In this document: positions 2,851 through 26,282 of the stretch, piece after piece
Layout: every line of letters starts with the position of its first letter
Numbering within the stretch: position 1 is the first letter of the stretch
IMG/VR virus record: IMGVR_UViG_3300030390_002035
Span: 1 to 47,234 of that record
Origin: a virus
Reading direction: 5' to 3' (one strand)
Length of the DNA stretch: 47,234 nucleotides
Translations under genes and position numbers: made by a program
Notes under the pieces: model-generated
What the model saw: only the letters and a program-made list of their open reading frames with translations
Databases searched by the model: none
Told to the model about the DNA's origin: nothing

Positions 2851-2876
2851 AACCCGGCTTTATGCCGGGTTTTTTT
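2851..2876 (+). terminator. Intrinsic terminator after the capsid gene
   Basis: A perfect 8-bp GC-rich stem AACCCGGC / GCCGGGTT with loop TTTAT is followed by a run of T. It lies 28 bases after the capsid stop codon and should end the head transcript. Confidence 0.9.
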
Positions 2877-2884
2877 ATGTTTTT

Positions 2885-2900
2885 TATATGTATAATAAAA
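2885..2900 (+). promoter_or_regulatory. Putative late promoter, G variant
   Basis: TATATGTATAATAAAA matches the recurrent late motif TAT(T/G)TATAAnAAAA. It sits right after the capsid terminator and about 120 bases before phoH, leaving an AT-rich leader (2901-3018) in which I see no other gene. Confidence 0.55.
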
Positions 2901-3018
2901 TGAGTTATACCAAAACTATATTTATCTCATTATATAGCTATATCAATAATTTACTGTTTTTTAACGTATTTACAACGGTTGCATTCACTGATAACCTAAC
3001 CCCTAATTTAAAGAATTT

Positions 3019-5889: not shown

Positions 5890-5890
5890 T

Positions 5891-8962: not shown

Positions 8963-8966
8963 AATT

Positions 8967-9566
8967 ATGGCAAGAGTAAAAGGAACATTAGGTATATCAG
9001 CAAATTTCGAACCACAAATAGCAGCAGCATTTGATGCTCGTGCTAATGTACCTACAAAAGCAGACTTAATTCTTGCTTCTACTTGGGTAGCATTAGATTC
9101 GGGAACTTACGTTTATAAAGGTATGACTGTTACCGTCTCTGAGGATTCAACGGCATCTAACAATGGTATTTATGTTTTATTAGATACTGCTAAACTAACT
9201 ACTGCTGATTTTTCAGGTTGGTTATTTGTAGGATCTGGTGGTGGAAGTAGTGTTGATATTTTAAATAATGTTGATAATTATGTTCTTACAGCTACAGGTA
9301 ATAGCAATCAAGTTGAAGGAAATGCCCAATTAGTTTTTGATGGTAATAATTTAGGTATAGGAGCAACATCAACTGGACCTAGACTTGAAATTAATGATAA
9401 TAATACCGGTAGGGATTTATTATTAATAAAGAATACTGATAGTCAAGGTATAAAAGTAACAAGCGCAGGTGTATTAGAATTAATAGAATTTTCAACTCTA
9501 CCAGCAACACCTGTAGAAGGTGGAATAGTTTATTCTTCTAGTGCCTTTTATGTAGGTTTAGGATAA
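8967..9566 (+). CDS. Fibre-associated structural protein
   Basis: This 199-aa protein lies between two triplet fibres. Its N-terminal half (FDARANVPTKADLI, then GTYVYKGMTVTVSEDSTASNNGIYVL) looks like a small beta domain seen in phage fibre tips. The second half contains a module, NNVDNYVLTATGNSNQVEGNAQLVFDGNNL, described here as VLTATG...FDGNNL, which is shared with the 1804-aa fibre (VLTATG...FDGSTL). The end, FSTLPATPVEGGIVYSSSAFYVGLG, is a common fibre tail segment. It has no triplet repeats. It is probably a fibre subunit or adaptor for its neighbours; function is inferred from context and the shared module. Confidence 0.72.
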   Translation: MARVKGTLGISANFEPQIAAAFDARANVPTKADLILASTWVALDSGTYVYKGMTVTVSEDSTASNNGIYVLLDTAKLTTADFSGWLFVGSGGGSSVDILNNVDNYVLTATGNSNQVEGNAQLVFDGNNLGIGATSTGPRLEINDNNTGRDLLLIKNTDSQGIKVTSAGVLELIEFSTLPATPVEGGIVYSSSAFYVGLG

Positions 9567-11174: not shown

Positions 11175-11232
11175 ATTACGGCCCGTGAGGGAAGTGGTCT
11201 GAATAATCAGTAGCCAACCTAATAGAATTGAT
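11175..11232 (+). promoter_or_regulatory. GC-rich structured leader of the giant fibre
   Basis: This 58-base 5' leader is far richer in G and C than other leaders here. It can form CCC-GTGA-GGG (11182-11191) and TGG-T-CTGA-ATAA-TCAG-TAG-CCA (11195-11216). It may control translation or stability of the fibre mRNA; this is inference. Confidence 0.35.
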
Positions 11233-14200
11233 ATGCCAAATTGGAAAAAAGTAATAATCAGTGGTTCTAATGCAGAATTAAATGATTTAAAATTAACAGG
11301 TCTTTCAACCCAAGGATCTGAAAATACAACACTCGTAATTAATAGTAGTGGTGAAATAGGTACAAGAGAAAATGCTGCTTCATCAGGAACAAGCGGCTCT
11401 TCTGGCTCATCAGGTTCAGATGGTTCATCAGGAACAAGTGGCTCTTCAGGTACTTCAGGTTCAAGCGGTTCAAGCGGTTCAGACGGTTCCTCTGGTACTT
11501 CAGGCTCAAGTGGTTCAGATGGTTCATCTGGAACAAGTGGCTCATCTGGAACAAGTGGCTCTTCTGGCTCATCAGGTTCAGATGGTTCATCAGGAACATC
11601 TGGTTCAAGTGGTAATGATGGTTCTTCAGGAACAAGTGGTTCAGATGGTTCATCGGGAACAAGTGGCTCTTCAGGAACATCAGGAATTTCTGGTTCTTCA
11701 GGAACATCTGGTTCAAGTGGTAATGATGGTTCCTCTGGCACTTCAGGCTCATCAGGTACAAGTGGTATAGATGGTACTTCTGGAACAAGTGGCTCATCAG
11801 GAACTTCAGGAACAAGTGGCTCTTCAGGTACAAGTGGTAATTCAGGCTCTTCAGGAACAAGCGGTTCTTCGGGATCAGATGGTTCTTCAGGAACATCTGG
11901 CTCAAGTGGTTCAGATGGTTCTTCAGGAACTTCAGGTTCTTCAGGTACAAGCGGTGCTGATGGTTCATCAGGTACATCTGGCTCAAGTGGTTCAGATGGT
12001 TCTTCAGGAACAAGTGGTTCATCTGGTACAAGCGGTGCTGATGGTTCATCAGGTACATCTGGCTCAAGTGGTTCAGATGGTTCATCAGGTACATCTGGCT
12101 CAAGTGGTTCAGATGGTTCTTCAGGTACTTCAGGTTCCGATGGTTCATCAGGAACAAGCGGTTCTTCGGGATCAGATGGTTCTTCAGGAACATCTGGCTC
12201 AAGTGGTTCAGATGGTTCTTCAGGTACTTCAGGCTCAAGTGGTTCAGATGGTTCATCAGGAACTTCAGGTTCTTCAGGTACAAGCGGTGCTGATGGTTCA
12301 TCAGGTACATCTGGCTCAAGTGGTTCAGATGGTTCTTCAGGTACTTCAGGTTCCGATGGTTCATCAGGAACAAGCGGTTCTTCAGGTAATAGTGGTACTT
12401 CAGGTTCAAGTGGAACAAGTGGCTCAGACGGGTCTTCTGGTACAAGTGGCTCATCTGGTTTATCTGGAACAAGCGGTTCTTCAGGTAATTCAGGCTCATC
12501 AGGAACAAGTGGTTCAGATGGTTCATCAGGAACAAGTGGTTCAGATGGTTCATCGGGAACAAGTGGATCATCAGGTGTTTCAGGTACAAGTGGCTCATCA
12601 GGTAATTCAGGTTCATCAGGAACATCAGGTAATTCAGGTTCTTCGGGAACTAGTGGTTCAGACGGTTCATCGGGAACAAGTGGCTCATCAGGAACTTCAG
12701 GTGTAAGTGGCTCTTCAGGAACTAGTGGTTCAGATGGTTCATCTGGAACAAGTGGTTCATCAGGAACTAGTGGTAATTCAGGTTCATCAGGAACAAGCGG
12801 TTCAGATGGTTCATCAGGAACAAGTGGTTCTTCAGGTTCATCTGGTACAAGCGGTTCTAGTGGTACTTCAGGAAATTCTGGTTCTTCAGGTAGTTCAGGT
12901 TCTTCAGGAACAAGTGGCTCTTCAGGAACAAGTGGTAACTCAGGATCAAGTGGTTCATCAGGATCAAGTGGCTCATCAGGTTCATCAGGACAAGATGGTA
13001 ATTTTGGTGGTGCTACTTTCAACTATACATTTGAATCTAATACTAATATTGGTCAAGACCCGGGTGCTGGAGATATAAGATTAAATAACTCAACACAAAA
13101 TGCCGCTACTATATCTGCTATAAGTCAGACAACAGAAGATGGTGATGATATACAATCTTTTTTAGAAAGTATTGATGCATCTACATCCGCGGTAAAAGGC
13201 CATATGAGACTAGCAGATAAATTTGCAGCAGAAAATTTTATATTATTTGCTATTTCAAATTTAACAGATCAAGGTACATATTGGACAATAAATATAAGTG
13301 AAGAAGCATCATCTGCTGCCTCACCTTTTAGTGCTAATGAAGAAATAATTGCTTCTTTTGCTTTAGTCGGAGATAGAGGAGATGATGGATCATCAGGATC
13401 ATCAGGTTCCTCAGGTTCATCTGGTAGTTCAGGTTCAAGCGGTTCCTCAGGCTCTTCAGGCTCATCAGGTTCATCTGGAACAAGTGGCTCTTCCGGAACA
13501 TCTGGTAACTCAGGTTCATCAGGAACATCAGGTAATTCAGGTTCTTCGGGAACTAGTGGTTCATCAGGTTCATCTGGAACAAGCGGTTCTTCAGGAACAT
13601 CAGGAGTTTCAGGTAGTTCAGGAACAAGTGGGTCATCAGGTACAAGTGGGAATTCAGGTTCTTCAGGTACAAGTGGAAATTCAGGTTCTTCAGGAACATC
13701 CGGCTCATCAGGAACAAGTGGTTCTTCAGGTTCATCTGGTACAAGCGGTTCTAGTGGTACTTCAGGTAACTCAGGCTCTTCGGGTTCAAGTGGCTCTTCT
13801 GGTAATTCGGGTTCAAGTGGTTCTTCAGGTTCTTCGGGAACATCAGGTTCATCTGGAACAAGCGGTTCTTCAGGAACATCTGGTAACTCAGGTTCTTCAG
13901 GTACAAGCGGTAATTCAGGTTCATCTGGAACAAGTGGGTCATCAGGAACATCTGGTAACTCAGGTTCTTCAGGTACAAGTGGTAATTCAGGTTCGTCAGG
14001 AACAAGTGGTTCTTCAGGTAACTCAGGTTCTTCTGGTTCAAGTGGAAGTTCAGGTAACTCAGGTTCTTCAGGTACAAGTGGTACTTCAGGTTCATCAGGA
14101 ACAAGTGGCTCATCAGGTACATCAGGTAACTCAGGTTCTTCTGGTTCAAGTGGAAGTTCAGGTAACTCAGGTTCTTCAGGTAGTTCAGGTTCATCAGGAA

Positions 14201-16647
14201 CAAGCGGCTCTTCAGGAACAAGCGGAACTTCAGGTTCAAGTGGAACAAGCGGTAATTCAGGTAGTTCTGGTTCATCGGGTTCTAGTGGTAATTCAGGTTC
14301 ATCAGGAACAAGTGGTTCTTCAGGAGCAAGTGGTTCATCAGGAACAAGCGGCTCATCAGGTACATCAGGTAACTCAGGTTCTTCTGGTTCAAGTGGAAGT
14401 TCAGGTAACTCAGGTTCATCAGGTACATCAGGGTCTTCAGGTAATTCAGGTTCATCAGGAACAAGTGGCTCATCAGGTACATCAGGTAACTCAGGTTCTT
14501 CTGGTTCAAGTGGCTCAAGTGGCTCAAGTGGCTCATCAGGTTCAAGTGGTACAACATCAATTACAAATAATGTTAATGATAGAGTATTAACAGCTACTGG
14601 GACATCTACAATTAATGGTGAAGCATGTTTAACATTTGATGGTAGTACACTTACAGCACAAAATTCACGTATAGACTTTGGAAAGGACAATATACAATTA
14701 GGTACATTAAGTTCTATATTAGGTGGAGAACTTAATAAAGTAATTCTGGGCGCTAGCCATACTACAATAGGAGGTGGTTTTAAAAATACAGCATCAAATT
14801 CAAGTACAGATTGTGCTTTTATAGGAGGAGGATGTGGTAATAAAGTATGTAATGCTTATAATGTAGTAGTAGGTGGTCAAAATAATAAAGCTGCAAGTAA
14901 TTATGCAGCTGTAGTCGGTGGTGCTAATAACTCAAGTATAGCATGTCATGGATTTATAGGAGCAGGTTCTGGTAATACTCTTAGTCTTGGTTGTGCAACA
15001 TCATTACTTGGAGGCTGTAGTAACACAATTGATGGTAGTGTTAACTGCTCAGTTTTATTAGGAGGTAAAGAAAATTGCATGTTTGATGGTGGTGGTTTGC
15101 CTGCTTCTTGTACCCATTATGCTTTTATAGGTACTGGTTGTAAAAATCAAATAAATACAGCAAGTTTTCAAGCTTGTTTTTCAACAATATTAAATGGATC
15201 CCATAATGAAAATCACTGTAATTTTTCTTTTATAGGAGGAGGAACAAAAAATACTTCATCTACAAGTTTTAGTGCAATTTTAGGTGGAGAACGAAATTCA
15301 ATAACAACTGAAGGGTGTGGAAAATGTTGTACTGGAAACAATTTTATTGGGGTAGGATTTCAAAATAGCATTCAGGGTGAACATCATGGAGGTGCAATTC
15401 TTAGTGGTATCTTTAATTGTATTACTGGTTCTATGGGTACTTGTGTTAATGTTATACCTTGTAATAATACAATAGTATCTGGTCAAAGTAATACTATCCG
15501 AGTTACTCAAAGAACCAACCATAATGTTATTGGTGGAGGTAGGCTTAATGTTATATGTTCTATTGGGGCTTGTGATAATAACGAATATATCTCCCCAGGA
15601 AATAATACAATAGGAGGAGGTAATGGCAATAAGATTTTTGTTTGCTCTAGAGCAGCATTTGGTACTCAAGGGGCTGCAGGAGGTAATGTTATTAATGGAG
15701 GTTTATCTAATAAAATTTGCTGTGCTAGTCACAGTCTTATAGCTGGGGGTGGTGTTAATTGCATAATATGCTGTGGATGGAACAATAATATAGGAGGTGG
15801 TCAATATAATATAATATGTAACCAAGCGGGTAGTTCTATTCTTGGAGGCTGTTCTAATACAATTTGTGCAGTTGGGGCTATACAAGATCAACATCATACT
15901 AATACTATTGTAGGTGGGAATTCAAATTCAATAGGAGCTGGTGATGGTTGTGCAATCCAAAACACAGTTGGAGGTGGTTCAGGTAATAAAATTTGTTGTT
16001 GTGGTGTTGCTAATTTTGTAGCAGGATGTAATAATTGTTTAGGTGCTGGTAGTAGTACTAATAATTCACGATTTTCAGCAGTATTTGGGTGTAATAATAA
16101 AACTTGTGCAGACCATAATTTAATGGCAGGGTATAATAATACTATAGCATCGAGTTATGATAGAACAGCTATTTTAGGTACTTATGGTAAAACTGCAACT
16201 GCAAACGATCAATTAATGGTTTGCTGTATTTGTGCTTTTGGATCTTTAAGTAAAGCTTCTGGTACATTTACAATTGATCATCCAAACCCAAGTAAAACAG
16301 AAACACATCATTTAAAGCATAGTTTTGTTGAATCACCAACAGCTGGGGATAATGTATATAGATGGGAAGTTGATATTGATGATACACTTCAAGGTGAAAT
16401 AATCCTCCCAGAATATTACAGATATTTAAATGAAAACTCTCAAGTATGGATTAATCCTGTAAATAATTTAGGTAGAGCATTTGGTATAGTAAATATTAGT
16501 GCAACAAAAGTAAAAATAACAACATCAGATCCTGGGAAATTTAATATATTAGTTATTGGAACTAGAAAAGATAAAGCAGCAGTTGAAGCTTGGAAAGGTG
16601 TTGAAGTTAAAAAAACAAAAGAAGAAAAACTTAATTATAAAGGTTAA
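11233..16647 (+). CDS. Giant tail fibre, 1804 aa
   Basis: This is the largest gene in the window. In order: N-terminal attachment domain (residues 1-48, NWKKVIISGS) shared with the fibre at 9604; a shaft of about 180 Gly-X-Y triplets; a non-repetitive domain of about 125 residues (GATFNYTFESNTNIGQDPGA onward); a second shaft of about 130 triplets; a module VLTATG...CLTFDGSTL; a solenoid of about 27 copies of (I/V/L)xGGxxN(x)I, similar to YadA-type trimeric beta-roll heads and holding about 40 cysteines; and a C-terminal domain starting SGTFTIDHPNPSKTETHHL, a type found at the end of marine phage structural proteins. It is probably the main receptor-binding or long tail fibre. The shafts contain no proline. 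Confidence 0.88.
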   Translation: MPNWKKVIISGSNAELNDLKLTGLSTQGSENTTLVINSSGEIGTRENAASSGTSGSSGSSGSDGSSGTSGSSGTSGSSGSSGSDGSSGTSGSSGSDGSSGTSGSSGTSGSSGSSGSDGSSGTSGSSGNDGSSGTSGSDGSSGTSGSSGTSGISGSSGTSGSSGNDGSSGTSGSSGTSGIDGTSGTSGSSGTSGTSGSSGTSGNSGSSGTSGSSGSDGSSGTSGSSGSDGSSGTSGSSGTSGADGSSGTSGSSGSDGSSGTSGSSGTSGADGSSGTSGSSGSDGSSGTSGSSGSDGSSGTSGSDGSSGTSGSSGSDGSSGTSGSSGSDGSSGTSGSSGSDGSSGTSGSSGTSGADGSSGTSGSSGSDGSSGTSGSDGSSGTSGSSGNSGTSGSSGTSGSDGSSGTSGSSGLSGTSGSSGNSGSSGTSGSDGSSGTSGSDGSSGTSGSSGVSGTSGSSGNSGSSGTSGNSGSSGTSGSDGSSGTSGSSGTSGVSGSSGTSGSDGSSGTSGSSGTSGNSGSSGTSGSDGSSGTSGSSGSSGTSGSSGTSGNSGSSGSSGSSGTSGSSGTSGNSGSSGSSGSSGSSGSSGQDGNFGGATFNYTFESNTNIGQDPGAGDIRLNNSTQNAATISAISQTTEDGDDIQSFLESIDASTSAVKGHMRLADKFAAENFILFAISNLTDQGTYWTINISEEASSAASPFSANEEIIASFALVGDRGDDGSSGSSGSSGSSGSSGSSGSSGSSGSSGSSGTSGSSGTSGNSGSSGTSGNSGSSGTSGSSGSSGTSGSSGTSGVSGSSGTSGSSGTSGNSGSSGTSGNSGSSGTSGSSGTSGSSGSSGTSGSSGTSGNSGSSGSSGSSGNSGSSGSSGSSGTSGSSGTSGSSGTSGNSGSSGTSGNSGSSGTSGSSGTSGNSGSSGTSGNSGSSGTSGSSGNSGSSGSSGSSGNSGSSGTSGTSGSSGTSGSSGTSGNSGSSGSSGSSGNSGSSGSSGSSGTSGSSGTSGTSGSSGTSGNSGSSGSSGSSGNSGSSGTSGSSGASGSSGTSGSSGTSGNSGSSGSSGSSGNSGSSGTSGSSGNSGSSGTSGSSGTSGNSGSSGSSGSSGSSGSSGSSGTTSITNNVNDRVLTATGTSTINGEACLTFDGSTLTAQNSRIDFGKDNIQLGTLSSILGGELNKVILGASHTTIGGGFKNTASNSSTDCAFIGGGCGNKVCNAYNVVVGGQNNKAASNYAAVVGGANNSSIACHGFIGAGSGNTLSLGCATSLLGGCSNTIDGSVNCSVLLGGKENCMFDGGGLPASCTHYAFIGTGCKNQINTASFQACFSTILNGSHNENHCNFSFIGGGTKNTSSTSFSAILGGERNSITTEGCGKCCTGNNFIGVGFQNSIQGEHHGGAILSGIFNCITGSMGTCVNVIPCNNTIVSGQSNTIRVTQRTNHNVIGGGRLNVICSIGACDNNEYISPGNNTIGGGNGNKIFVCSRAAFGTQGAAGGNVINGGLSNKICCASHSLIAGGGVNCIICCGWNNNIGGGQYNIICNQAGSSILGGCSNTICAVGAIQDQHHTNTIVGGNSNSIGAGDGCAIQNTVGGGSGNKICCCGVANFVAGCNNCLGAGSSTNNSRFSAVFGCNNKTCADHNLMAGYNNTIASSYDRTAILGTYGKTATANDQLMVCCICAFGSLSKASGTFTIDHPNPSKTETHHLKHSFVESPTAGDNVYRWEVDIDDTLQGEIILPEYYRYLNENSQVWINPVNNLGRAFGIVNISATKVKITTSDPGKFNILVIGTRKDKAAVEAWKGVEVKKTKEEKLNYKG
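11380..12999 (+). repeat. Giant fibre shaft 1, about 180 Gly-X-Y triplets
   Basis: About 1.6 kb of nine-base units encode Gly-Ser-Ser, Gly-Thr-Ser, Gly-Ser-Asp, Gly-Ala-Asp, Gly-Asn-Ser and similar. Longer supra-units recur nearly identically (for example the stretch with GADGSSGTSGSSGSDGSSG at several places), consistent with recombinational expansion. Confidence 0.9.
13369..14550 (+). repeat. Giant fibre shaft 2, about 130 Gly-X-Y triplets
   Basis: This is the second run of nine-base units. It differs in composition from shaft 1: Gly-Asn-Ser is common and Gly-Ser-Asp is absent after the first triplets, so the two shafts have evolved separately. Confidence 0.9.
14716..16200 (+). repeat. 27-copy cysteine-rich solenoid repeats
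   Basis: About 27 degenerate units of 15-25 residues have the core (I/V/L/F)(I/L/V)xGGxxNxI, for example ILGGELNKV, TIGGGFKNT, FIGGGCGNKV and TVGGGSGNKI. By hand count about 40 Cys fall in this region, several as CC or CCC. Confidence 0.8.
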
Positions 16648-16650
16648 TTT

Positions 16651-16668
16651 AATATTTATAGTAAAATA
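16651..16668 (+). promoter_or_regulatory. Putative late promoter
   Basis: AATATTTATAGTAAAATA is a late motif with one change (AGT for AAC/AAT), about 20 bases before the ATG at 16672. Confidence 0.6.
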
Positions 16669-16671
16669 CAA

Positions 16672-16980
16672 ATGACACATACTTGGAAAATTTACGATCT
16701 TAAAAGAACAATTTCAACTGGAGTAGTTACTGAAGTAACATATGCTTGCGAGTCAGAAGATAGTGGGTATCCATCTAGAAGTATTGGATCCTTTAATATT
16801 TCTGGTAATCCTACTGACGCTGGATTTATTAATTATGAAGAATTAACAGAAGCTAATATTTTAGGGTGGTTAGATGCTAATGTTAATAAACAAACTTTTG
16901 AAGATAAAAATTCATTAAAAATTCAAAGTATAATTGATAGTATTGCTGCCCAAACAGAAAAAAATGGTACTCCTTGGTAA
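16672..16980 (+). CDS. Conserved phage hypothetical protein (102 aa)
   Basis: The protein begins MTHTWKIYDLKRTISTGVVTEVTY and continues with a beta-rich domain (ACESEDSGYPSRSIGSFNIS) and a helical C-terminus (EANILGWLDANVNKQTFEDK, then KIQSIIDSIAAQ). Small proteins starting THTWKI are common in marine myoviruses beside fibre genes; the function is not known to me. With its own late-type motif and its place at the end of the fibre region it may be a small virion or fibre-assembly protein. It ends in a possible hairpin and is the last gene before the sugar module. Confidence 0.72.
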   Translation: MTHTWKIYDLKRTISTGVVTEVTYACESEDSGYPSRSIGSFNISGNPTDAGFINYEELTEANILGWLDANVNKQTFEDKNSLKIQSIIDSIAAQTEKNGTPW

Positions 16981-16995
16981 TATAGTTAGGAGTAC
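16967..16995 (+). terminator. Possible weak terminator or stabilising hairpin
   Basis: GTACTCCT (16967-16974) pairs perfectly with AGGAGTAC (16988-16995) across a 13-base loop containing the stop codon. Only a short TTAAATTAGTTT follows, so termination may be weak. It divides the fibre region from the sugar module. Confidence 0.4.
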
Positions 16996-17000
16996 TTAAA

Positions 17001-17040
17001 TTAGTTTCGTATATTAGTTCTAACATAAAAATAGTTATAA
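17001..17040 (+). promoter_or_regulatory. Putative non-late promoter of the sugar module
   Basis: TTAGTTTCGTATATTAG (17001-17017), with downstream AGTTATAA just before the ATG, is shared almost base for base with the region ahead of the SSB gene, and its core TTTCGTATATT with the region ahead of the DNA polymerase. TATATTAG resembles a Bacteroidota -7 element (TAnnTTTG). It is probably an early or middle promoter. Confidence 0.5.
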
Positions 17041-17919
17041 ATGAATATTATATTTCAAATAGATGGTGGTTTAGGTAAAAACATTCTAGCTACAGCTATA
17101 ATTAAAGTTATTAAAAAAAGATACAAAAACTCTAATTTAATAATAGTAACAGGATTCCCGGATGTATTTTTAAATAATCCGGATGTTTTTGAGGTTTATA
17201 AACTTGAACAAATACATGGTTTTTATCTTAAATTTATTAAAGATCAAAAATGTAAAGTATTTGTAACAGACCCATATAGAACTTCTGATTTTATATTAGA
17301 TAAACCTATATCTTTATTAAAAACTTGGTGTGAATTATATGGATTAAGATATAATAATGAACAACCCCAAATATATCTTACCCAACCAGAAATAGATTAT
17401 TTTACCCCTTATTATAAAACAGAAAAACCTATATTAGCAATACAACCAAATGGTGGTCCTGCTGGTTTAAACTACCAATATTCTTGGACTAGAGATATCC
17501 CTGAACCTACTATACTAGAATTAATAGAACATTATAAAAATGATTATACTATAATTCATATAAAAAGAGAAGATCAAAAAATGTATCCTGATACAATGCA
17601 AGCATTAGATGGGTTTAGAAGTATAGCTATATTATTACAAATGTCAGATAAAAGATTACTTATTGATTCTTTTGCCCAACATCTGTCAGCTGCTCTAAAC
17701 AAAAAGTCTACAGTATGTTGGCCAAATACTAAACCAGAAATATTTGGTTATAAATTACATGATAATATTAAAGCAAACCCAATTACAGGTACTCCAAATC
17801 TTACAAATGCTATGTATGGGCCTTATAATTTTTCAGAAGAAATATCTACAATCCCTTATAAAGATTTAAAAGATATATTTAATACAGATAAAATTATTAC
17901 TTCAATAAATAACCAATAA
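17041..17919 (+). CDS. Glycosyltransferase family 9-like protein
   Basis: This 292-aa protein resembles heptosyltransferase-type (GT9, GT-B fold) enzymes that transfer a sugar from a nucleotide donor. The N-terminus IIFQIDGGLGKNILATAII is the first Rossmann strand and helix of the family. NLIIVTGFPDVFLNNPDV matches the usual 'predicted position' strand. The second domain begins LAIQPNGGPAG and contains the conserved order of RDIP, HIKREDQ and LIDSFAQHLSAALNKKSTV, where GT9 members have the donor-site DSGxxHLAAAL pattern. Here DSFAQHLSAAL replaces it, so the active site is slightly altered. It is the first gene of a coupled module; its stop shares a base with the next start (TAATG). Confidence 0.75.
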   Translation: MNIIFQIDGGLGKNILATAIIKVIKKRYKNSNLIIVTGFPDVFLNNPDVFEVYKLEQIHGFYLKFIKDQKCKVFVTDPYRTSDFILDKPISLLKTWCELYGLRYNNEQPQIYLTQPEIDYFTPYYKTEKPILAIQPNGGPAGLNYQYSWTRDIPEPTILELIEHYKNDYTIIHIKREDQKMYPDTMQALDGFRSIAILLQMSDKRLLIDSFAQHLSAALNKKSTVCWPNTKPEIFGYKLHDNIKANPITGTPNLTNAMYGPYNFSEEISTIPYKDLKDIFNTDKIITSINNQ

Positions 17920-18350
17920 TGGTATACTGGTTTACAGGTCAACCCTCTCATGGTAAGACCGTTTTAGCAAATTTACTTCAACAAGAATTAGGTAACATAC
18001 CTTATAGGATAGATGGGGATGATATGAGAGATTTATTTTCTAATAAAGATTATTCAATTAAAGGTAGAGTAGAAAATGTAGGAACAGCACAACGTATTGC
18101 TCATTATCTACATAATCAAGGTAATGATGTTATTGTATCTTTAGTATCCCCTTACTTAGATCAAAGAGAAGATTTTAAAACTCTTCTTGGTAAAAATATA
18201 AAAGAAATTTATGTACATACATCAGAACCAAGAGAACGTGACCATTGGAAAGCTATTGCGTATATTGGTCCCCAAGAAAATTATATTAATATAGATACTA
18301 CAGATGATACACCTGAAGAATCTTTGAAAAAAATCTTAAATCAAATATGA
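17919..18350 (+). CDS. Adenylylsulfate kinase-like P-loop kinase
   Basis: This 143-aa protein has Walker A GQPSHGKT at residues 7-14 and the APS-kinase-type IDGDDMRDLF at 31-40. Then come RVENVGTAQRIAHYL and VIVSLVSPYLDQREDF, which match the conserved VRRxAEIAxLL and ALISPxxxxR parts. CysC phosphorylates adenylylsulfate to PAPS, the sulfate donor. It is shorter than bacterial CysC (about 180-200 aa), losing the C-terminal part, so another small phosphoryl acceptor cannot be excluded. Next to a nucleotidylyltransferase, a DUF2061-like gene and glycosyltransferases, it most likely serves to activate or modify a surface sugar. The next gene overlaps it by 4 bases (ATGA). Confidence 0.8.
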   Translation: MVYWFTGQPSHGKTVLANLLQQELGNIPYRIDGDDMRDLFSNKDYSIKGRVENVGTAQRIAHYLHNQGNDVIVSLVSPYLDQREDFKTLLGKNIKEIYVHTSEPRERDHWKAIAYIGPQENYINIDTTDDTPEESLKKILNQI

Positions 18351-18703
18351 GTAAAAAGTATTCAATGTTTATCGGTCGTTGGCAACCTTGGCACCAAGGA
18401 CATCGTTGGTTAATTGACCAACGTTTAAATGACGGGAAAAACGTATTAATCTGTATTCGAGATGTAGAACCAAATGAAAAACAACCTTGGACCGCTGATG
18501 AAGTAATGTTAAATTTATCTACAGAACTAAAAGATTTACTTAATGAAGGTAAAATTAAAATAATTAAAATACCAGATGTTGAATCTATTAATTATGGTAG
18601 AGGTGTAGGATATGAAGTAATAGAACATATTCCACCTGAAGATATAAAAGAAATATCTGCTACTAAAATTAGATCTAAAATGAGAAAAGATGGTAAGTTA
18701 TAA
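18347..18703 (+). CDS. Cytidylyl/adenylyltransferase-like protein
   Basis: This 118-aa enzyme of the nucleotidylyltransferase superfamily has the N-terminal MFIGRWQPWHQGHRWLI with the HxGH nucleotide-binding motif (H16-H19). The C-terminal ISATKIRS at 103-110 is the family's ISxTxIR motif. Such enzymes form CDP- or ADP-linked products (glycerol, ethanolamine, heptose, NMN). The substrate cannot be told from sequence; in a sugar module an activated sugar or alditol donor is likely. It overlaps the kinase gene by 4 bases and the next gene by 14 bases, so the four genes from 17041 form one translational unit. Confidence 0.8.
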   Translation: MSKKYSMFIGRWQPWHQGHRWLIDQRLNDGKNVLICIRDVEPNEKQPWTADEVMLNLSTELKDLLNEGKIKIIKIPDVESINYGRGVGYEVIEHIPPEDIKEISATKIRSKMRKDGKL

Positions 18704-18908
18704 AAGACATATTGCAAAAACAATATCATGGAGAATAGTAGGATCAATCGATACAATTATAATATCAGGATTAATAACTGGTTCTTGGGAAGCAGGTTTA
18801 ACTATAGGAGGAATAGAAATTATTTCTAAAATGGTATTATACTTCCTTCATGAAAGACTTTGGTATAAATTTAGTAAATTTGGGGTAAATGGGAAAACAA
18901 AAAATTAA
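18690..18908 (+). CDS. DUF2061-like small membrane protein
   Basis: This 72-aa protein has the DUF2061 pattern: KRHIAKTISWRIVGSIDTIII, then GLITGSWEAGLTIGGIEI and ISKMVLYFLHERLWYK. Two hydrophobic segments (about residues 16-30 and 33-52) suggest an inner-membrane hairpin. DUF2061 genes in bacteria often adjoin cysC-type sulfate-activation genes, and here the APS-kinase-like gene is two genes away. The function is not established; a membrane scaffold or transporter element for the modification pathway is possible. It overlaps both neighbours, by 14 and 20 bases. Confidence 0.85.
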   Translation: MVSYKRHIAKTISWRIVGSIDTIIISGLITGSWEAGLTIGGIEIISKMVLYFLHERLWYKFSKFGVNGKTKN

Positions 18909-21189
18909 AGTATATGCACATGGTTCATATATAGGTCCTACAGGATATAATAACCATACAAGAGAATTTTTTAGGGGGTTATCTAAACTTAATCCTATAA
19001 AAGTAAAAAATTTTACTATTGGTAAATCTTGGGAAGGTTATAATGATGAATGTCATAATAAAGAACAATATATAGATGATATAGATAAAAAATTGTTAGT
19101 AGAACAATCTTTATGGGAAGGTGGGTTTGGAAACATACTTACTTCTAAACCTATATATAAAAATCATCCTAATATTTTTAAACATGATGTTAATATTATA
19201 TTAGCAGAAGTAGATCATCACTTTTTTTATCAAAAATATGATGGTCCTAAAATAGCATACACCGTATGGGAAACAACAAGATATCCAAAATCTTTTTATG
19301 ATAGACTAGAATTATGTGATCAAATATGGGTTGCTTCTAATTGGCAAAGAAATTGTAGTATAGAACAAGGGATGGATCCTAACAAAGTTAAAGTAATTCC
19401 TGAAGCTGTTAATAGTAGTATTTTTTACCCTAATAGTAAATCTACACTCCCTGAATATGAAGATAATAGATTTAAATTTTTAATATTTGGTAGATGGGAT
19501 TATCGAAAATCAACCAAAGAAATAATATCAGCATTTTTACAAGAATTTGATAAGAATGAACCTGTAGATTTAGTATTATCTGTTGATAATGTTTTTGCTA
19601 AAGATGGTTTTAAAAGTACAGAAGAAAGATTAAAGCATTATAATTTAGAAGACCCCAGATTAAAAATAAAACATTTCCCTACTAGAGAAGAATATATTAA
19701 ATATTTACAAAAAGGTCATATATTTTTATCTTGTGCAAGAGCAGAAGGATGGAATTTACCTCTAATTGAAGCTATGGCTTGTGGTACTCCTTCTATTTAT
19801 TCTAATTGTAGTGCACAATTGGAATTTGCTGAGGGAAAAGGACTCCCAGTAAAAATTAAAGGAACAACCCCAGCTATAGGTGGAGAATATGTCCCATATT
19901 CACAATCTGAATTATCTGGGGAATTTTACGAACCTGACTTTGAGGATTTAAAAAAAGTAATGAGAGATGCCTATGTAAATTATAAAAAGTATAAAAAAAT
20001 AGCATTAAAAGAATCTAAAGAAATATCTAAACAGTTTACTTGGGAAAATGCTGCTAAAATAGCAAATAAAGAAATAACTAATTTTGTTAATAATTTACCA
20101 CCCAACAGAATTGAACTAAATTTTGATAAAGGACCTAAAGTAGAAATAGTAGGTTCTCAACTTAAAGAATATAAAGTAGAATTTATTAATGGGTTTAATA
20201 ACCAAATAGAACACTCAGCTACTATTAAAAATGGTATGTGGACTAAATGTAGTAAAGAATATTATATTCCTTGGATAATTAAAATAGATGGTGAAATAGT
20301 ACATAAATTTAATGTAGAAGGTAAAAAAGTTAAAATTAGTTTTGATTCCAAATCCGTAGGTGATACTTTAGCCTGGATGCCTCATGTGTTAGAGTTTCAA
20401 AAAATCTATAATTGTAGAGTATGTGTTAGTTCATTTCATAATGAATGGTTTAAAAAATTAGAAGTATACAAAGATATTAAATTTATAAAACCAGATACTT
20501 CTTATAAGGCATACGTTCAATATAAAATAGGATGGTTTAAAACTAATGGAAAATGGGATAATGGTTTAAAAAATCCTATTCAAGCTAATACAATTCCTTT
20601 AATAAAATCAATAACAGATATTTTAAATGTTCCTTATAGGGAATTAAATCATGGTATAGACTTTAAACCTAGTAAAAGACCAATAAAAGAAAAATACATA
20701 TGTATTGGTCCAAGGTCAACAGCAGGAATTAAAGAATGGCCCTATGAAAATTGGAAAGAATTAGCTACTAAATTAAGTAAAAAGGGATATAAAATAGTTA
20801 ATTTATCTTATGAAGGATTTGAAGGTAAAAATATTATAAATAAAAAAGAATTAGATTGGCCTAATACATGGAATTACATGCACCATGCAGAAGTATTTAT
20901 AGGATTAGGATCTGGTTTATCTTGGGTAAATTGGGCATTAAATAAACATACTATAATGATAAATAATTTTATCCCTTATGGTTATGAATTTACTAATAAT
21001 TTAACTAAAATAGAAAACCACTCAGTAAATAATAATATATGGTCAAACCCTCATTATGTGTTTGATGCTGGAGATTGGGATTGGGATCCAGAATATCAAG
21101 GCACAGAAAAACAACATATAGCTCAAAAGTCAATAACTGTTAAACAAGTTTATACTAGTGTAATAGATTATTTAAAAAATAAAAAATAA
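18889..21189 (+). CDS. Bifunctional glycosyltransferase: GT4 plus TibC-like O-heptosyltransferase
   Basis: This 766-aa protein has two glycosyltransferase units. Residues 1 to about 400 are GT4-like (GT-B): PEAVNSSIFYP, FKFLIFGRWDYRKSTKEII, and EGWNLPLIEAMACGTPSI near 286-303 with the EX7E-type pattern. From about 480 the sequence changes to a pattern I recognise from autotransporter strand-loop-strand O-heptosyltransferases (TibC/AAH): SFDSKSVGDTLAWMPHV, the VCVSSFHNEWF strand, ICIGPRSTAGIKEWPYENW, and GLGSGLSWVNWALNKHTIM near 672-690. TibC enzymes put heptose on Ser of repeat adhesins. Fusion of both units suggests sequential sugar additions. The target could be the phage's own Ser-rich fibres or host glycans. 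Confidence 0.82.
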   Translation: MGKQKIKVYAHGSYIGPTGYNNHTREFFRGLSKLNPIKVKNFTIGKSWEGYNDECHNKEQYIDDIDKKLLVEQSLWEGGFGNILTSKPIYKNHPNIFKHDVNIILAEVDHHFFYQKYDGPKIAYTVWETTRYPKSFYDRLELCDQIWVASNWQRNCSIEQGMDPNKVKVIPEAVNSSIFYPNSKSTLPEYEDNRFKFLIFGRWDYRKSTKEIISAFLQEFDKNEPVDLVLSVDNVFAKDGFKSTEERLKHYNLEDPRLKIKHFPTREEYIKYLQKGHIFLSCARAEGWNLPLIEAMACGTPSIYSNCSAQLEFAEGKGLPVKIKGTTPAIGGEYVPYSQSELSGEFYEPDFEDLKKVMRDAYVNYKKYKKIALKESKEISKQFTWENAAKIANKEITNFVNNLPPNRIELNFDKGPKVEIVGSQLKEYKVEFINGFNNQIEHSATIKNGMWTKCSKEYYIPWIIKIDGEIVHKFNVEGKKVKISFDSKSVGDTLAWMPHVLEFQKIYNCRVCVSSFHNEWFKKLEVYKDIKFIKPDTSYKAYVQYKIGWFKTNGKWDNGLKNPIQANTIPLIKSITDILNVPYRELNHGIDFKPSKRPIKEKYICIGPRSTAGIKEWPYENWKELATKLSKKGYKIVNLSYEGFEGKNIINKKELDWPNTWNYMHHAEVFIGLGSGLSWVNWALNKHTIMINNFIPYGYEFTNNLTKIENHSVNNNIWSNPHYVFDAGDWDWDPEYQGTEKQHIAQKSITVKQVYTSVIDYLKNKK

Positions 21190-21201
21190 AATTTTTACTT
21201 A

Positions 21202-22641
21202 ATGGATAAAAAATTTGTTTGGATAACAGGAGGAGATCAAAATTATTTATTAATGATTGAGGTGCTTGCTAAAAGTTTATTAAAATATTCTAAATATAAA
21301 CTTATAGTGTATGGTTTTAATTGTGATTCTAATATTAATCTTCCTAATGTTATTAATAAAAGAATTAATTATTTTCCTAAACACCTAAAAGAACCAAACA
21401 ATAAAGAACCAGATTTAATTAATAAAGATTATTCTGTTTATTTTGCTAAATATTTAGCTAATTTAGATTCTTTAAACGAAAACTTTGATAAATTTGCTTG
21501 GATAGATGGGGATGCTTTTGTTACTGAACATATAGATAAATCATTAAAGTATTTAAATAAATTAGAAGATTATCCTTTATTTATGAAGTATTTTCATAAT
21601 AATATTTCAAATTGGAAAATACATAATAATATAAGATTAGAAGGTGAATATGGATCAGAATTAACAGGTGTATATAATCATATTCCAAGAAACCCAAATA
21701 ATAAAATTATAGCAACGGGGTTTTATTTTTACGATGTAAATAGTAAAGATTTTTTTAATAAATGTCTTAGTTGGAATCACTATTTAAATAGTTACAATAT
21801 AAAAATTTATGTAGACGATAATGCATTCTCAGAAGAAAGAGTAGCAAATTGTGTATTATGGGAAGAAAATAAAACATTAGACTTACCTATTACGTGGAAT
21901 AATTATTATAGTTCTAAAGACGAAACTTTAGTTAATTCTTATTTTTTAAAACAGGGTTTTGATGTAATGTACGATAAAAATACACTTGAACCCTATTTTG
22001 TACATGGTCCCGATCCTTCAATTTTAGCTAAAAGTTCAACAGTGCTAAACCGTGCATTTAATGATTATACATCAACAAAATTAATGATAGTAGCTCACCC
22101 TGATGATGAAATAATATTTGGGAGTACAGAATTAATTAAATATGGTTCTGAATATAAAGTACTTTGTCTTACTAATAAGTCAAATAAAATTAGAAGTAAA
22201 GAGTTTGAAAAAGTAATGAAAGAGTTAAATATTAATTCTTGGGAAATACTTGATTATGAAGATACATTAATGCCAACCCAAAATTTTAATTTAAAAGACA
22301 TAATTAACTGTAAAGATTGGAAAAAAATAGTAACTCATAATCCTATTGGTGAATATGGTCACCCACAACATAAATTAGCCTTTGATGCTGTTAAAAATGA
22401 AACTCATAACTTTTATATTTTTAATAAATCATTAAAAAAAATAGACCAAAATTATTTGGACACTAAAAACCAGCTACTTAAATTGTATGAGTCAGAACAA
22501 GAAATGTTTAACCAAATTAAAACCAAAAATGGGGATTGGTTTAAAAGTAATTCTGATACTAATTATATTGAATACGAATCAATTGTTAAATATGATGTAA
22601 ATAAAGATATTACACCTTATATAGCTTGTTATGACAAATAA
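21202..22641 (+). CDS. Glycosyltransferase fused to PIG-L family deacetylase
   Basis: This 479-aa fusion has residues 1 to about 280 as a GT-A/GT8-like domain: FVWITGGDQNYLLMIEVLAKSLL at the start, DxD-type IDGDAF at 101-106, and FVHGPDPS near the end. Residues about 290-479 are a PIG-L/LmbE-type zinc de-N-acetylase: KLMIVAHPDDEIIFG with AHPDDE at 298-303, and HNPIGEYGHPQHKLAF with the third zinc ligand in GHPQH at 386-390. PIG-L enzymes remove acetyl from GlcNAc-type sugars. The fusion suggests that an N-acetyl sugar is transferred and then deacetylated, or that its acceptor is. It starts 12 bases after the previous gene and overlaps the next by 11. Confidence 0.84.
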   Translation: MDKKFVWITGGDQNYLLMIEVLAKSLLKYSKYKLIVYGFNCDSNINLPNVINKRINYFPKHLKEPNNKEPDLINKDYSVYFAKYLANLDSLNENFDKFAWIDGDAFVTEHIDKSLKYLNKLEDYPLFMKYFHNNISNWKIHNNIRLEGEYGSELTGVYNHIPRNPNNKIIATGFYFYDVNSKDFFNKCLSWNHYLNSYNIKIYVDDNAFSEERVANCVLWEENKTLDLPITWNNYYSSKDETLVNSYFLKQGFDVMYDKNTLEPYFVHGPDPSILAKSSTVLNRAFNDYTSTKLMIVAHPDDEIIFGSTELIKYGSEYKVLCLTNKSNKIRSKEFEKVMKELNINSWEILDYEDTLMPTQNFNLKDIINCKDWKKIVTHNPIGEYGHPQHKLAFDAVKNETHNFYIFNKSLKKIDQNYLDTKNQLLKLYESEQEMFNQIKTKNGDWFKSNSDTNYIEYESIVKYDVNKDITPYIACYDK

Positions 22642-23602
22642 AAATTTAATAATAATCCAGTGTCATTGTAATACAGAAGAAAAAATTTCTGTTTTAGAAA
22701 AAAATATAAAAATTTTAAAAAATCAAAAATTTAAAATTTTAGTAGTATCTCATATTCCTGTAAATCAAACCATTCAAGATAAAGTTGATTATTTTATTTA
22801 TGATAAAAGTAATCCAATATTACATTGGCCTGATAGAGGTATGATACATTGGATGAAAATAGATTTTGACAAAACATATAAAGCTATTAATGTTCTTTTT
22901 GATTTTGGTTGGACTTCTTTAAACCAAATTTTACTAGCAGGTAATTTAGGTTTATCTTTAGACTTTGATTATTACACTTTTATTAATTATGATATTCAAA
23001 TTACAGATAATATAATAGGGGCAATACAAAAACCAGTACCTTTATTAAGTAGTAAAGTTGTAGATAATAGGGTAAAAAATAATTTTAGATTCCCTAGTTT
23101 ATTATTTAATATATTCAGTAAAAAAAATTTACAAAGAGTCTTACCTTTATTTTCTAAAGAAAAATATATAAAGGGTTATTATAATAAAGAAGGTAAAACT
23201 ATACTTTATAGGGATGCAGAAGAATATTTTGGTGATATTATTAAAAATTTTCATTATGTAACTTTTAAAGACGAAATACAGGATTTAATTAAATTTGAAG
23301 AACCTGATATGTTAAATTGTAGTAAACATGATGATTTTAAAATTTTAATACAAAATGATACAACTCATTCTACTGTACACCCTTTACCTCACAGTTCTAA
23401 AGCTTTAATATATAACAATAAATCTAAAGGATTTGATTTTGTAGTTAATGATACAGTTATAAACATAAAAGATAAAAAAAAATTAATATATTTACCTAAA
23501 ATAAAAAAGATAGGATATACATACAAAAATAATTTTGTTAATCTAATAGAAGAATATAAAAGTTCAAATTATGTTAATATAAATTACGAAGAATTATGGT
23601 AG
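22631..23602 (+). CDS. Glycosyltransferase-like protein
   Basis: This 323-aa protein begins with a Rossmann-like strand-helix (NLIIIQCHCNTEEKISVLEKNI, LKNQKFKILVVSHIPV) and has YYTFINYDIQITDNII at about 116-131, where GT-A transferases carry the DxD region. The canonical DxD is replaced by NYDIQ. LFDFGWTSLNQILLAGNLGL is a helix often seen near the donor site in such proteins. It belongs to a poorly described glycosyltransferase-like group of marine phages; activity is not certain. It closes the sugar module, overlaps the PIG-L fusion by 11 bases, and is followed by a late promoter motif. Confidence 0.62.
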   Translation: MTNKNLIIIQCHCNTEEKISVLEKNIKILKNQKFKILVVSHIPVNQTIQDKVDYFIYDKSNPILHWPDRGMIHWMKIDFDKTYKAINVLFDFGWTSLNQILLAGNLGLSLDFDYYTFINYDIQITDNIIGAIQKPVPLLSSKVVDNRVKNNFRFPSLLFNIFSKKNLQRVLPLFSKEKYIKGYYNKEGKTILYRDAEEYFGDIIKNFHYVTFKDEIQDLIKFEEPDMLNCSKHDDFKILIQNDTTHSTVHPLPHSSKALIYNNKSKGFDFVVNDTVINIKDKKKLIYLPKIKKIGYTYKNNFVNLIEEYKSSNYVNINYEELW

Positions 23603-23639: not shown

Positions 23640-23894
23640 ATGAGTAAAACAATTAAGTTATCAAAAGAAGAACTAAAAGTTCTTAGAGGTTATCAACAGG
23701 ATCAAAATCAAATTACTTTTAGTTTAGGTAATGTTGATATTCAAAAAGCAATATTAGAAGGACAAAGAAGTTCAATTTTAGATGGGTTAGCAGATTTACA
23801 AGAAAAATCTAATAAAACTGCTAAGGAATTACAAGATAAGTATGGTGATGGAAACATTGACTTAGAAACTGGAGAATTTACTTTGGTAAAATAG
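23640..23894 (+). CDS. Small coiled-coil phage protein
   Basis: This 84-aa protein is mainly helical: KTIKLSKEELKVLRGYQQDQ, then IQKAILEGQRSSILDGLADL and EKSNKTAKELQDKYGDGNID. It ends with a short strand, IDLETGEFTLVK. The pattern helix-helix-YGDGxIDLxTGEF is common in small proteins of marine T4-like phages. No function is known to me. It has its own late-type motif directly ahead of the sheath unit, so a minor tail or assembly role is possible. Confidence 0.72.
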   Translation: MSKTIKLSKEELKVLRGYQQDQNQITFSLGNVDIQKAILEGQRSSILDGLADLQEKSNKTAKELQDKYGDGNIDLETGEFTLVK

Positions 23895-23951: not shown

Positions 23952-26282
23952 ATGGCAGAAACATTAATATCTCCAGGTGTATTAGCAAGAGAAAACGACC
24001 AATCCTTTGTTACTTCGCAACCCGTTGAAAGAGGTGCGGCACTTATAGGCCCTACAGCTTTAGGTCCCGTAGAAAGACCAACTTTAATTAGTTCTTTTAG
24101 TTCATACCAAGCAATTTTTGGTGGAGCTTTACAAAGTGGATCTAATGAATATACTTATCTTACTTCTATAGCTGCAAACCAATATTTTCAAAATGGTGGT
24201 AATTCTTTATTAATAACAAGAGTAGCTTCTGGGTCAAGTGCAAATTGGAGTTCTGCAACTTCAACTACAATTCAAAATAATGTAGAATCAACAACTTCTG
24301 GTTTAGTAGGTAGTATATTTAGTGGATTACAACCAAACCAAGGTAGTGGTTCAGCAGCCCCAGCAACATATTCTAATGTAGCTTTAATAACAGGTACAGG
24401 AGCAGGATCTGGTGCTACAGCAACTGTAACAACTAGTAATTCAAATGGGATATTAATTAAAACTACTACTTTAGCAATTGCAGGCAGTGCACCAACAACT
24501 ACTTTAAATGCTACTACAGCAGCTCAAGCTATTACTACAGCAGCAGGAACAGGAGCAACAGTAACAATAACATCAGCAGGTCTTGATATTACAACAATAA
24601 CAGTAGTTCTTGAAGGAACTTTATATGTACCCGAAGAAACAGTTACAATAACAGCAGCAACATTAACTGCCCTTACAACATTAGGGACAGTAACAGGAGA
24701 TCTAACCTTTACTATTGGTCAAGCTAATGTATTAACAGAAATATCTGCTGTACAAATAGTACAAGATGGAACTGATTACGCATCAGGAAATACATTAAGT
24801 ATAGCAGCAGGAGACGTTGGTACCCCAGCTGTAGCTCCAACATTTATCTTAACAGATGCAATGATAGAAAACAATCCAGCATTTGAATTAGAAACAATTT
24901 CCGAAGGTACTGTAATGAATAATACATTCCCATTTGGATCAGATACTTCAGGTGCTCAGATAGCAGGTGGAGCATTAGTTAGTGGATCTGCTGAAAATTT
25001 AAGATGGCAAATTACAAGTGTTAATACTTCTTCAGGGGTATTTTCATTAGCAATTAGACGTGGTAATGATGATACAAATCGTCCTGTAGTATTAGAAACT
25101 TTTAATAATGTTTCATTAGACCCCTTTGCTCCAAATTATATTTCAAGAGCAATTGGTGATATTTCAACTAATTTAGTAACAGAAGGAGTAGATACTTTTT
25201 TACAAGAATCAGGATCTTTCCCACAAATTTCTAGTTATGTTAGAGTAAAATCAGTAAATTCACCTACTCCACGTTATTTTGAAAATAATGGTGTAGCAAA
25301 AAATGAATTTACAAGTTCTTTACCTCAAGCAGGATCAGGTTCATTTGATGGAGCAGTTGGTTCAAACATTCCAGTAGGTAGAGCTGCTAATTTTTACCAA
25401 AATATTAGTGTTACTGATTCACAAGGATTAGTAGGAACTGATTATACTAATGCAATTGCATTAATGGCAAATCAAGATGACTACCAATACAATGTAATAT
25501 CAGTACCAGGTTTAACAAACCAAACACATGCAGCACAAATTACTAGCTTGATGAATACTTCAATTTCTCGTGGTGATAGTATTGCTGTAATTGATTTAGT
25601 AACATATAATCAACCGATAAATACTGTAGTAAACCAAGCAGGTGGGATTGATAATAGCTATACGGCAGCATATTGGCCTTGGTTACAAACAATTGATCCA
25701 AACTCAGCACAATTAGTTTACATACCAGCATCAACATTTATACCAGGTGTATACGCGTTTACAGATGCTTCAAGTGATCCATGGTTCGCACCAGCAGGTA
25801 TTACTAGAGGAGGAATGGGACAAGTTGTTAGAGCTGAAAGAAAATTAACATCTACAAATAGAGATACTTTATATGAAGCTAATATAAACCCAATTGCAAC
25901 ATTCCCACAACAAGGAGTTGTAGTATTTGGTCAGAAAACGCTACAAAAAGCAGCATCTGCATTAGATAGAGTAAATGTACGTAGATTATTAATTACACTT
26001 AAGGATTTTATTTCTCAAATTGCTGATAATTTAGTATTTGAACAAAATACAATTGCAACAAGACAAAACTTTTTAACACAAGTTAACCCTTATTTAGAAT
26101 CAGTACAACAAAGACAGGGATTATTTGCTTTTAAAGTAGTAATGGATGAAAATAATAATACACCAGATGTGATAGATAGAAATGAGTTAATAGGACAGAT
26201 TTTCTTACAACCAACTAGAACAGCTGAATTTATATTATTAGATTTCAATGTATTACCAACTGGAGCAACTTTCCCAGCATAA
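23952..26282 (+). CDS. Tail sheath protein, gp18-like
   Basis: This 776-aa contractile sheath subunit wraps the tail tube and drives injection. The N-terminus SPGVLARENDQSFVTSQPVE and the following ERGAALIGPTALGPVERPTL, then FGGALQSGSNEYTYLTSIAA and NSLLITRV, are the classic start of gp18-type sheaths. The C-terminus (FPQQGVVVFGQKTLQKAASA, LDRVNVRRLLITLKDFI, FLQPTRTAEFILLDFNVLPTG) is the conserved inner domain that forms the sheath mesh. It is longer than T4 gp18 (659 aa): an Ala/Thr-rich insert of about 180 residues (about 131-310) sits where outer, variable domains of sheath proteins usually lie. Confidence 0.95.
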   Translation: MAETLISPGVLARENDQSFVTSQPVERGAALIGPTALGPVERPTLISSFSSYQAIFGGALQSGSNEYTYLTSIAANQYFQNGGNSLLITRVASGSSANWSSATSTTIQNNVESTTSGLVGSIFSGLQPNQGSGSAAPATYSNVALITGTGAGSGATATVTTSNSNGILIKTTTLAIAGSAPTTTLNATTAAQAITTAAGTGATVTITSAGLDITTITVVLEGTLYVPEETVTITAATLTALTTLGTVTGDLTFTIGQANVLTEISAVQIVQDGTDYASGNTLSIAAGDVGTPAVAPTFILTDAMIENNPAFELETISEGTVMNNTFPFGSDTSGAQIAGGALVSGSAENLRWQITSVNTSSGVFSLAIRRGNDDTNRPVVLETFNNVSLDPFAPNYISRAIGDISTNLVTEGVDTFLQESGSFPQISSYVRVKSVNSPTPRYFENNGVAKNEFTSSLPQAGSGSFDGAVGSNIPVGRAANFYQNISVTDSQGLVGTDYTNAIALMANQDDYQYNVISVPGLTNQTHAAQITSLMNTSISRGDSIAVIDLVTYNQPINTVVNQAGGIDNSYTAAYWPWLQTIDPNSAQLVYIPASTFIPGVYAFTDASSDPWFAPAGITRGGMGQVVRAERKLTSTNRDTLYEANINPIATFPQQGVVVFGQKTLQKAASALDRVNVRRLLITLKDFISQIADNLVFEQNTIATRQNFLTQVNPYLESVQQRQGLFAFKVVMDENNNTPDVIDRNELIGQIFLQPTRTAEFILLDFNVLPTGATFPA

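Follow-up and report, generated by a model that had tools for sequence, protein, structure and literature searches.

Comparison with described systems

Glycosylated collagen-like proteins, such as BclA of Bacillus, carry O-glycans on the Ser/Thr residues of their Gly-X-Y shafts, and mycobacteriophage virions are glycosylated by phage-coded glycosyltransferases (GTs), a system in which, to our knowledge, neither a TibC-type domain nor triplet fibres are known. Concerning TibC, which together with AAH represents the BAHT family (TIGR04414), the enzyme is described as modifying Ser of repeat proteins and acting on regular beta-solenoid repeats, with Arg286 contacting the adenine and an iron finger that is required for assembly and activity; each of the four iron-finger Cys mutants, as well as R286A, abolishes the activity or most of it (PMC4358343). 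Here we analyze a stretch of 47,234 nucleotides (the window, positions 1 to 47,234 of IMG/VR virus record IMGVR_UViG_3300030390_002035), taken from a 62-kb T4-like phage record, and in particular the seven genes at 17041-23602, which we consider likely to be a phage protein O-glycosylation cassette whose substrates are the Ser/Thr-rich collagen-like fibres of the same phage.

The core of this cassette resembles TibC/AAH in its fold with the N-terminal barrel, its catalytic base and three of the four donor-binding residues, as well as in its presumed acceptor, i.e. Ser in a repeat-rich surface protein. Unlike TibC/AAH, it is fused to a GT4 domain, has a shorter thumb, lacks the iron finger and Arg286, and scores below the TIGR04414 cut-off; moreover, its acceptor would be the triplet shaft of a phage fibre and its donor is probably not ADP-heptose. 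It is a known enzyme kind, found here as a variant in a new setting. With BclA-type proteins the likeness lies in O-glycans on Gly-X-Y shafts, although the enzymes are others and the setting is a bacterial exosporium, not a phage fibre. With the mycobacteriophage system it lies in GTs that modify the particle of the very phage encoding them, the difference being other GT families and other virion proteins. The GT clusters of jumbo cyanophages likewise group GTs, SDR epimerases, HIGH nucleotidyltransferases and methyltransferases, but the cassette differs from them in its protein-type TibC core, its position between fibres and sheath and its tracking of Ser/Thr triplets (PMC7824862). For Maravista, the GTs are said only to suggest capsid glycosylation (PMC11256854).

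The TibC-type domain

Residues 393-766 of the gene starting at 18889 match the TibC structures 4rap/4rb4 with a phmmer E-value of 2.2e-25. The match to TIGR04414 (E 6.9e-52) reaches 176.6 bits, under the 200-bit curated cut-off; ten phage relatives score 207-358 bits in nine cases and 193 in one. The predicted structure, with a mean predicted local distance difference test (pLDDT) of 91.7, superimposes on TibC over 349 residues (model 14-374 on TibC 22-391) at Z 37.8 and an rmsd of 2.1 A, the N-terminal beta-barrel of the TibC fold included, as compared with Z about 20 for plain GT9 enzymes. Judged by sequence and modelled fold together, the region is a true, although diverged, TibC/BAHT homologue. 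The original prediction, made by a model from the sequence alone, had proposed this relationship and named structure prediction against TibC as one way to check it; the profile matches and the fold of the C-terminal half both bear it out.

The residues that define function were taken from the TibC paper (PMC4358343) and followed through an alignment of 139 phage domains, including some whose contigs overlap or are nearly identical. No variation is seen at Asp110, Lys230 and Trp305, and position 226 is always Thr or Ser. The window domain retains Asp110, Thr226, Lys230 and Trp305, and by these residues its active site appears TibC-like. Arg286 is replaced by Thr in the window and kept in only 25 of the 139 domains, while the iron-finger cysteines (339, 342, 358 and 370) are Asn, Ile, Asp and Ala. 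Presence of the finger is all-or-none: 129 domains have the four Cys and 10, the window's among them, have none, which constitutes a natural experiment on the purpose of the motif. Compared with most of the phage relatives in which Arg286 remains, the beta-hairpin thumb is shorter by about 13 residues. Because both the iron finger and Arg286, two defining features, are missing, the domain is not classed as a strict BAHT. The gene shows no disruption, and several related contigs retain it at 74-96% identity. In another phage (L308) the TibC domain also lacks all four iron-finger Cys, a loss that, from the alignment, is apparently independent of that in the window's branch.

Association with Ser/Thr triplet fibres

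The window carries three collagen-like fibres, all of them Ser/Thr-rich:

7409-8962, + strand: fibre 1, candidate acceptor, 517 aa, 46 Gly-X-Y triplets, Ser/Thr-rich
9604-10731, + strand: fibre 2, 375 aa, 53 triplets, tag MANWKKVIVSGS at the N-terminus
11233-16647, + strand: fibre 3, main candidate acceptor, 1804 aa, Collagen PF01391 E 2.7e-125

The collagen match scores 408.6 bits against a gathering cut-off of 27.2, which places fibre 3 among the collagen-like fibres. It consists of the tag, 181 triplets, a spacer, 132 further triplets, a Gly/Asn/Cys-rich repeat domain (about 1120-1650) and a C-terminal domain. Over the three fibre open reading frames there are 412 Gly-X-Y triplets, 394 of which contain Ser or Thr, and 86% of the X/Y positions are one of the two (Ser 572, Thr 139). 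The three fibres had been described correctly from the sequence alone, although the span given for the system, 11233-23602, takes in the third fibre only, the other two lying upstream.

To see how fibre and enzyme are distributed in other phages, contigs of at least 30 kb were selected solely for nine consecutive Gly-[ST]-[ST] codon triplets. The TibC domain is present in 30 of these 67 contigs and in none of 42 Gly-Pro-X contigs (p 2e-8); among contigs of at least 100 kb the figures are 11/15 and 0/10, respectively. In a few of the 67 the coding triplets are short or unclear, which works against the association. Several of the Gly-[ST]-[ST] contigs lack a related sheath or belong to jumbo phages (up to 548 kb), hence the association is not confined to one lineage. 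A lineage-matched set of 120 loci sharing the tagged fibre family M-[AP]-x-W-K-K, used to lessen the host confound, gives the same picture, with the TibC domain in two of five loci with Ser/Thr triplets and in 0/115 without (p 0.0014); another of the five (G079) has the domain farther off on the same contig. Loci fetched by their sheath alone, with at least 7 kb upstream, contain it in 5/5 cases with local Ser/Thr triplets vs 7/18 without (p 0.04). Finally, in the 21 contigs with both parts the median gap between enzyme and triplets is 8.6 kb, whereas placing them at random gives 24 kb (p 0.0015). The TibC-type enzyme tracks Ser/Thr triplet fibres across very different phages. A survey of co-occurrence in related phages had been proposed as a check, and the association not only holds but extends to unrelated and jumbo phages. 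Many phages may therefore coat their own fibres with sugar by means of an enzyme of a class hitherto associated with bacterial adhesins.

Among 50,697 GenBank phage records, three distinct genomes have a TibC domain. Mel-JY01 and LR756501 show Ser/Thr triplets within 5 kb of it, and LR756504, where the domain is present, has none in the 49 kb examined. The association makes a direct test feasible in Mel-JY01, an isolated phage with both parts. In its record (L019, PP395634.1) the Ser/Thr triplet fibre, at 2-3052, has 1016 aa and is open at the record start; the record lacks such an annotation and has instead an antisense gene, 739-2298, over the fibre. Two further contigs with TibC-domain genes, L172 (G017) and L126 (G015), present triplet fibre frames of 4184 and 2745 aa.

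The enzyme module and its surroundings

The module consists of seven coupled genes, neighbours overlapping or almost touching, as had been noted from the sequence:

17041-17919, + strand: putative GT-B/GT9-like glycosyltransferase, 292 aa; weak match, PHROG_8954 E 1.7e-5; motif LIDSFAQH..AAL
17919-18350, + strand: APS-kinase-family kinase, 143 aa; APS_kinase PF01583 E 9e-16, APS kinase structures E 4e-15
18347-18703, + strand: small HIGH-superfamily nucleotidylyltransferase, NMNAT-like, 118 aa; CTP_transf_like E 1e-5
18690-18908, + strand: DUF2061 membrane protein, 72 aa; PF09834 E 7.8e-22
18889-20064, + strand: GT4 half of the 766-aa fusion; Pfam E 2.4e-10, PHROG_2170 E 1e-29
20065-21189, + strand: TibC/BAHT-type domain of the fusion, residues 393-766, by sequence and predicted fold; Glyco_transf_9 E 2e-7 in the 18889 gene
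21202-22641, + strand: putative glycosyltransferase (N half, DGD motif) fused to a PIG-L deacetylase; PIG-L E 1.3e-12
22631-23602, + strand: GT-A-fold protein, likely glycosyltransferase, 323 aa; model pLDDT 89.8, Z up to 15.3

The APS-kinase-like, nucleotidylyltransferase, DUF2061-like, GT4 and PIG-L assignments made earlier (17919, 18347, 18690, 18889 and 21202) are all backed by Pfam matches. The others fared more variably. The label GT9-like for the 17041 gene stands on motifs and weak matches, the gene being conserved in relatives and the motif showing in their alignment. The 21202 protein matches PIG-L (E 1e-12), while the proposed GT half has the DGD motif and no support in the databases. 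The 22631 gene has no family match, but its confident model has a GT-A-like fold, in line with the GT-like call. No match came from profile searches of the PDB, made with 17041, with 22631 and with the N-terminal half of 21202.

The company of the TibC domain varies among loci, including GT4, PIG-L, FkbM- or other methyltransferases and SDR genes, as expected of a varied glycan built upon a constant first step. Unlike the fusion of the window, L009 encodes its GT4 protein and its TibC domain in two adjacent genes.

The module is located in a structural cluster, with the fibres on one side and p84 and the sheath on the other:

16672-16980, + strand: DUF7936 protein, 102 aa, in the gap between fibre and module; E 1.2e-21
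23640-23894, + strand: p84, conserved 84-aa protein, in relatives the module boundary ahead of the tail sheath
23952-26282, + strand: tail sheath, 776 aa, Ser/Thr-rich insertion; anchor for locus retrieval and alternative acceptor

Among annotated phages, those with the closest tail sheath are Flavobacterium phage immuto (53.6%) and Microcystis phage Mel-JY01. The insertion, of about 200 residues (about 107-310), is variable among sheaths, whose lengths are 570-600 or 750-790 aa.

Donor sugar and probable sulfate activation

The original prediction spoke of a heptosyltransferase and of a module that builds an activated sugar, and neither point is favoured by our results. Arg286 is lost, 20 phage records contain no ADP-heptose nucleotidyltransferase domain that passes the cut-off, and among 41 Flavobacteriaceae no HldE kinase domain passes it either; the host itself is presumed. 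From these profiles and residues, heptose is doubtful as the transferred sugar and ADP-heptose improbable as the donor; with Arg286 missing from most phage domains, a different nucleotide sugar is likely. In G131, an HldC/TagD-type nucleotidyltransferase (81415-81783) directly behind the TibC-domain gene is a possible donor-making partner.

Concerning the trio of APS kinase, nucleotidylyltransferase and DUF2061 protein, the 17919 kinase scores 58.6 bits with PF01583 (gathering 21.1), with P-loop, DGD and SPY..R motifs aligned, and 59.2 bits with the equivalog TIGR00455, under its 138.7-bit cut-off. An ATP sulfurylase role for the 18347 protein is unsupported, its nearest relatives being NMN adenylyltransferases. 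Of 14 flavobacterial loci, 13 place DUF2061 in a cysQ-cysC-cysD or cysH-cysD operon (cys names read from flanking translations), and the trio stands next to a Pfam sulfotransferase in two phage loci without a TibC domain (L028 and L091). Since DUF2061 belongs to sulfate-assimilation operons and the trio pairs with sulfotransferases in these TibC-less loci, the trio probably serves sulfate activation, and the same two observations led us to reject sugar activation as first choice. In L102 a gene with a sulfotransferase motif is next to the trio; no sulfotransferase was seen in the 62-kb record of the window. Among open-licence papers, none was found on a phage APS kinase with a sulfotransferase.

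Promoter motifs

Fibres and module are preceded by different motifs, as previously pointed out. The motif AATATTTATA occurs 7 times in the window (0.74 expected), always just upstream of structural or late-type genes, fibre 3 among them. The second is early-type and has 3 occurrences (0.05 expected), i.e. before the module, before 37261 and before the ssDNA-binding-type gene 39049:

17006-17015, + strand: promoter-like motif TTCGTATATT before the module

The promoter types support the idea, as far as motifs can indicate timing, that the enzymes would be made before their fibre substrate. In the relatives checked, TTCGTATATT was not found ahead of the first module gene.

Proposed mechanism and alternatives

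That the cassette acts on the phage's own fibres is the most likely reading, given the TibC homology and fold, the retained catalytic residues, the association with Ser/Thr triplets together with the position of the module, and the promoter types. In the proposed mechanism, the TibC-type domain (20065-21189) would act in the cytoplasm, taking sugar from an activated donor and placing it, as the first unit, on Ser of fibre chains just synthesized. Extension or trimming of the glycan would then fall to the GT4 half of the fusion, to the GT/PIG-L protein and to the GT-A protein, the APS-kinase/nucleotidylyltransferase/DUF2061 trio most likely providing activated sulfate for further decoration. 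We infer the fibre as acceptor, Ser as the site, the order of steps, the sulfation and the benefit, which could be stiffness, protease resistance or masking. Of the earlier proposal of attachment to own fibres, the association and the TibC relationship stand as results, the acceptor as an inference. If true, a protein glycosyltransferase class so far known from bacterial adhesins extends to viral particles, the stability or protection of proline-poor Gly-Ser-Ser/Gly-Thr-Ser fibres is accounted for, and many anonymous phage glycosyltransferase clusters acquire a definite substrate. A bolder and tentative version, which we would not yet favour, is that a phage-only TibC branch (in T4-like and jumbo phages, with no member above cut-off among the host-phylum genomes sampled) decorates collagen-like fibre shafts with sulfated mucin-like glycans, the branch of the window having shed the iron finger and taken a new sugar donor.

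Three other readings have to be weighed; they and the favoured one are not fully exclusive. The cassette could remodel host-surface glycans (capsule or lipopolysaccharide), e.g. blocking rival phages, its proximity to the fibres reflecting a late-cluster hot spot for cargo. Polysaccharide clusters commonly contain GT4, SDR, methyltransferase and PIG-L genes, the module promoter is of replication type, and a 2021 review interprets the jumbo cyanophage GT clusters as surface modification (PMC7824862). However, what is conserved at the core is a TibC-type fold of the protein-modifying kind, and surface remodelling does not predict a tracking of Ser/Thr but not Gly-Pro-X triplets, in other lineages as well, hence we regard it as unlikely.

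A somewhat smaller chance is given to glycosylation of another virion protein or fibre part, such as the Gly/Asn/Cys-rich repeats of fibre 3 or the Ser/Thr-rich sheath insertion, instead of the triplet shaft. It would agree with the regular beta-solenoid repeats that TibC uses as substrate (PMC4358343), with L014 and L015, which have the enzyme and GGGxxN-type repeats and no triplets in the part seen, and with the enzyme in phages with Gly-Pro-Gln fibres; yet the strong association is with the Ser/Thr triplet only, many TibC loci have no GGGxxN repeats, and in an informal comparison sheath length varies without evident link to the enzyme.

Several observations weigh against the fibre shaft as acceptor. 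The original prediction was to count as refuted if the module proved common in phages lacking Ser/Thr triplet fibres, and this was partly seen: TibC domains stand alongside Gly-Pro-Gln fibres in L011, L158, L162 and L164, and loci without a collagen fibre nearby include L134-L139, L104, L114 and many fragments. On three contigs where a local collagen fibre seemed absent, Ser/Thr triplets nevertheless exist: for L004 and L005 at about 30 kb from the enzyme gene, and for L169 close to it but on the opposite strand, where a fibre is missed by the locus triplet counts, which cover the + strand only. None turned up for others, among them L135 with its 53.7-kb contig. In addition, 37 of the 67 triplet contigs, though mostly fragments, have no TibC domain, and the Gly-Pro-X control set may differ in host phylum. 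It should be noted that nearly all contigs are incomplete, so the presence or absence of either part is never final. On the biochemical side, the substrate of TibC is made of beta-helix repeats, not triplets, and the window enzyme lacks the iron finger that TibC requires (PMC4358343). Some phages may use an acceptor other than the triplet shaft.

Least probable is that the domain in the window's branch became inactive or merely structural with the loss of the iron finger and Arg286, residues whose mutation is so damaging in TibC (PMC4358343), given that Asp110, Thr226, Lys230 and Trp305 are retained in an intact gene kept at the identities given above and that Arg286 is missing from most phage relatives too.

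Fibre tag and leader

Fibres 2 and 3 share with many relatives the N-terminal tag M-[AP]-x-W-K-K-[VI]-[IV]-x-S-G-S, which starts fibre genes both with and without triplets and is perhaps an attachment peptide. Ahead of the WKK-tagged fibre genes there is a conserved leader, found in the window at 11179-11232 (GGCCCGnnAGGGAAGTGG...), with counterparts at L003 2989, L101 2706, L051 7653 and L242 4039. Two hairpins are predicted in three relatives, the second stem varying on both sides, and the fold energy is not exceptional. Rfam yields zero RNA families in the leader region.

Origin and distribution

Only one of 296 Bacteroidota genomes has a TIGR04414 match over cut-off, on a contig carrying a phage tail sheath, which speaks against a recent host origin; within this sample the TibC family looks phage-borne, not recently host-derived. 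No paper on TibC-type enzymes in phages was found among open-licence papers. A scan of genome contigs returned only two from bacterial metagenome-assembled genomes (L174 and L175) with a TibC domain, which look like phage DNA binned into them, since both carry a phage tail sheath. Finally, the remainder of the record of the window (L453, G000 47235-62142) contains, by eye, QueC-, QueE- and FolE-like genes at 5601-6392, 7581-8366 and 8493-9188, whose resemblance suggests 7-deazaguanine synthesis and possibly DNA modification.

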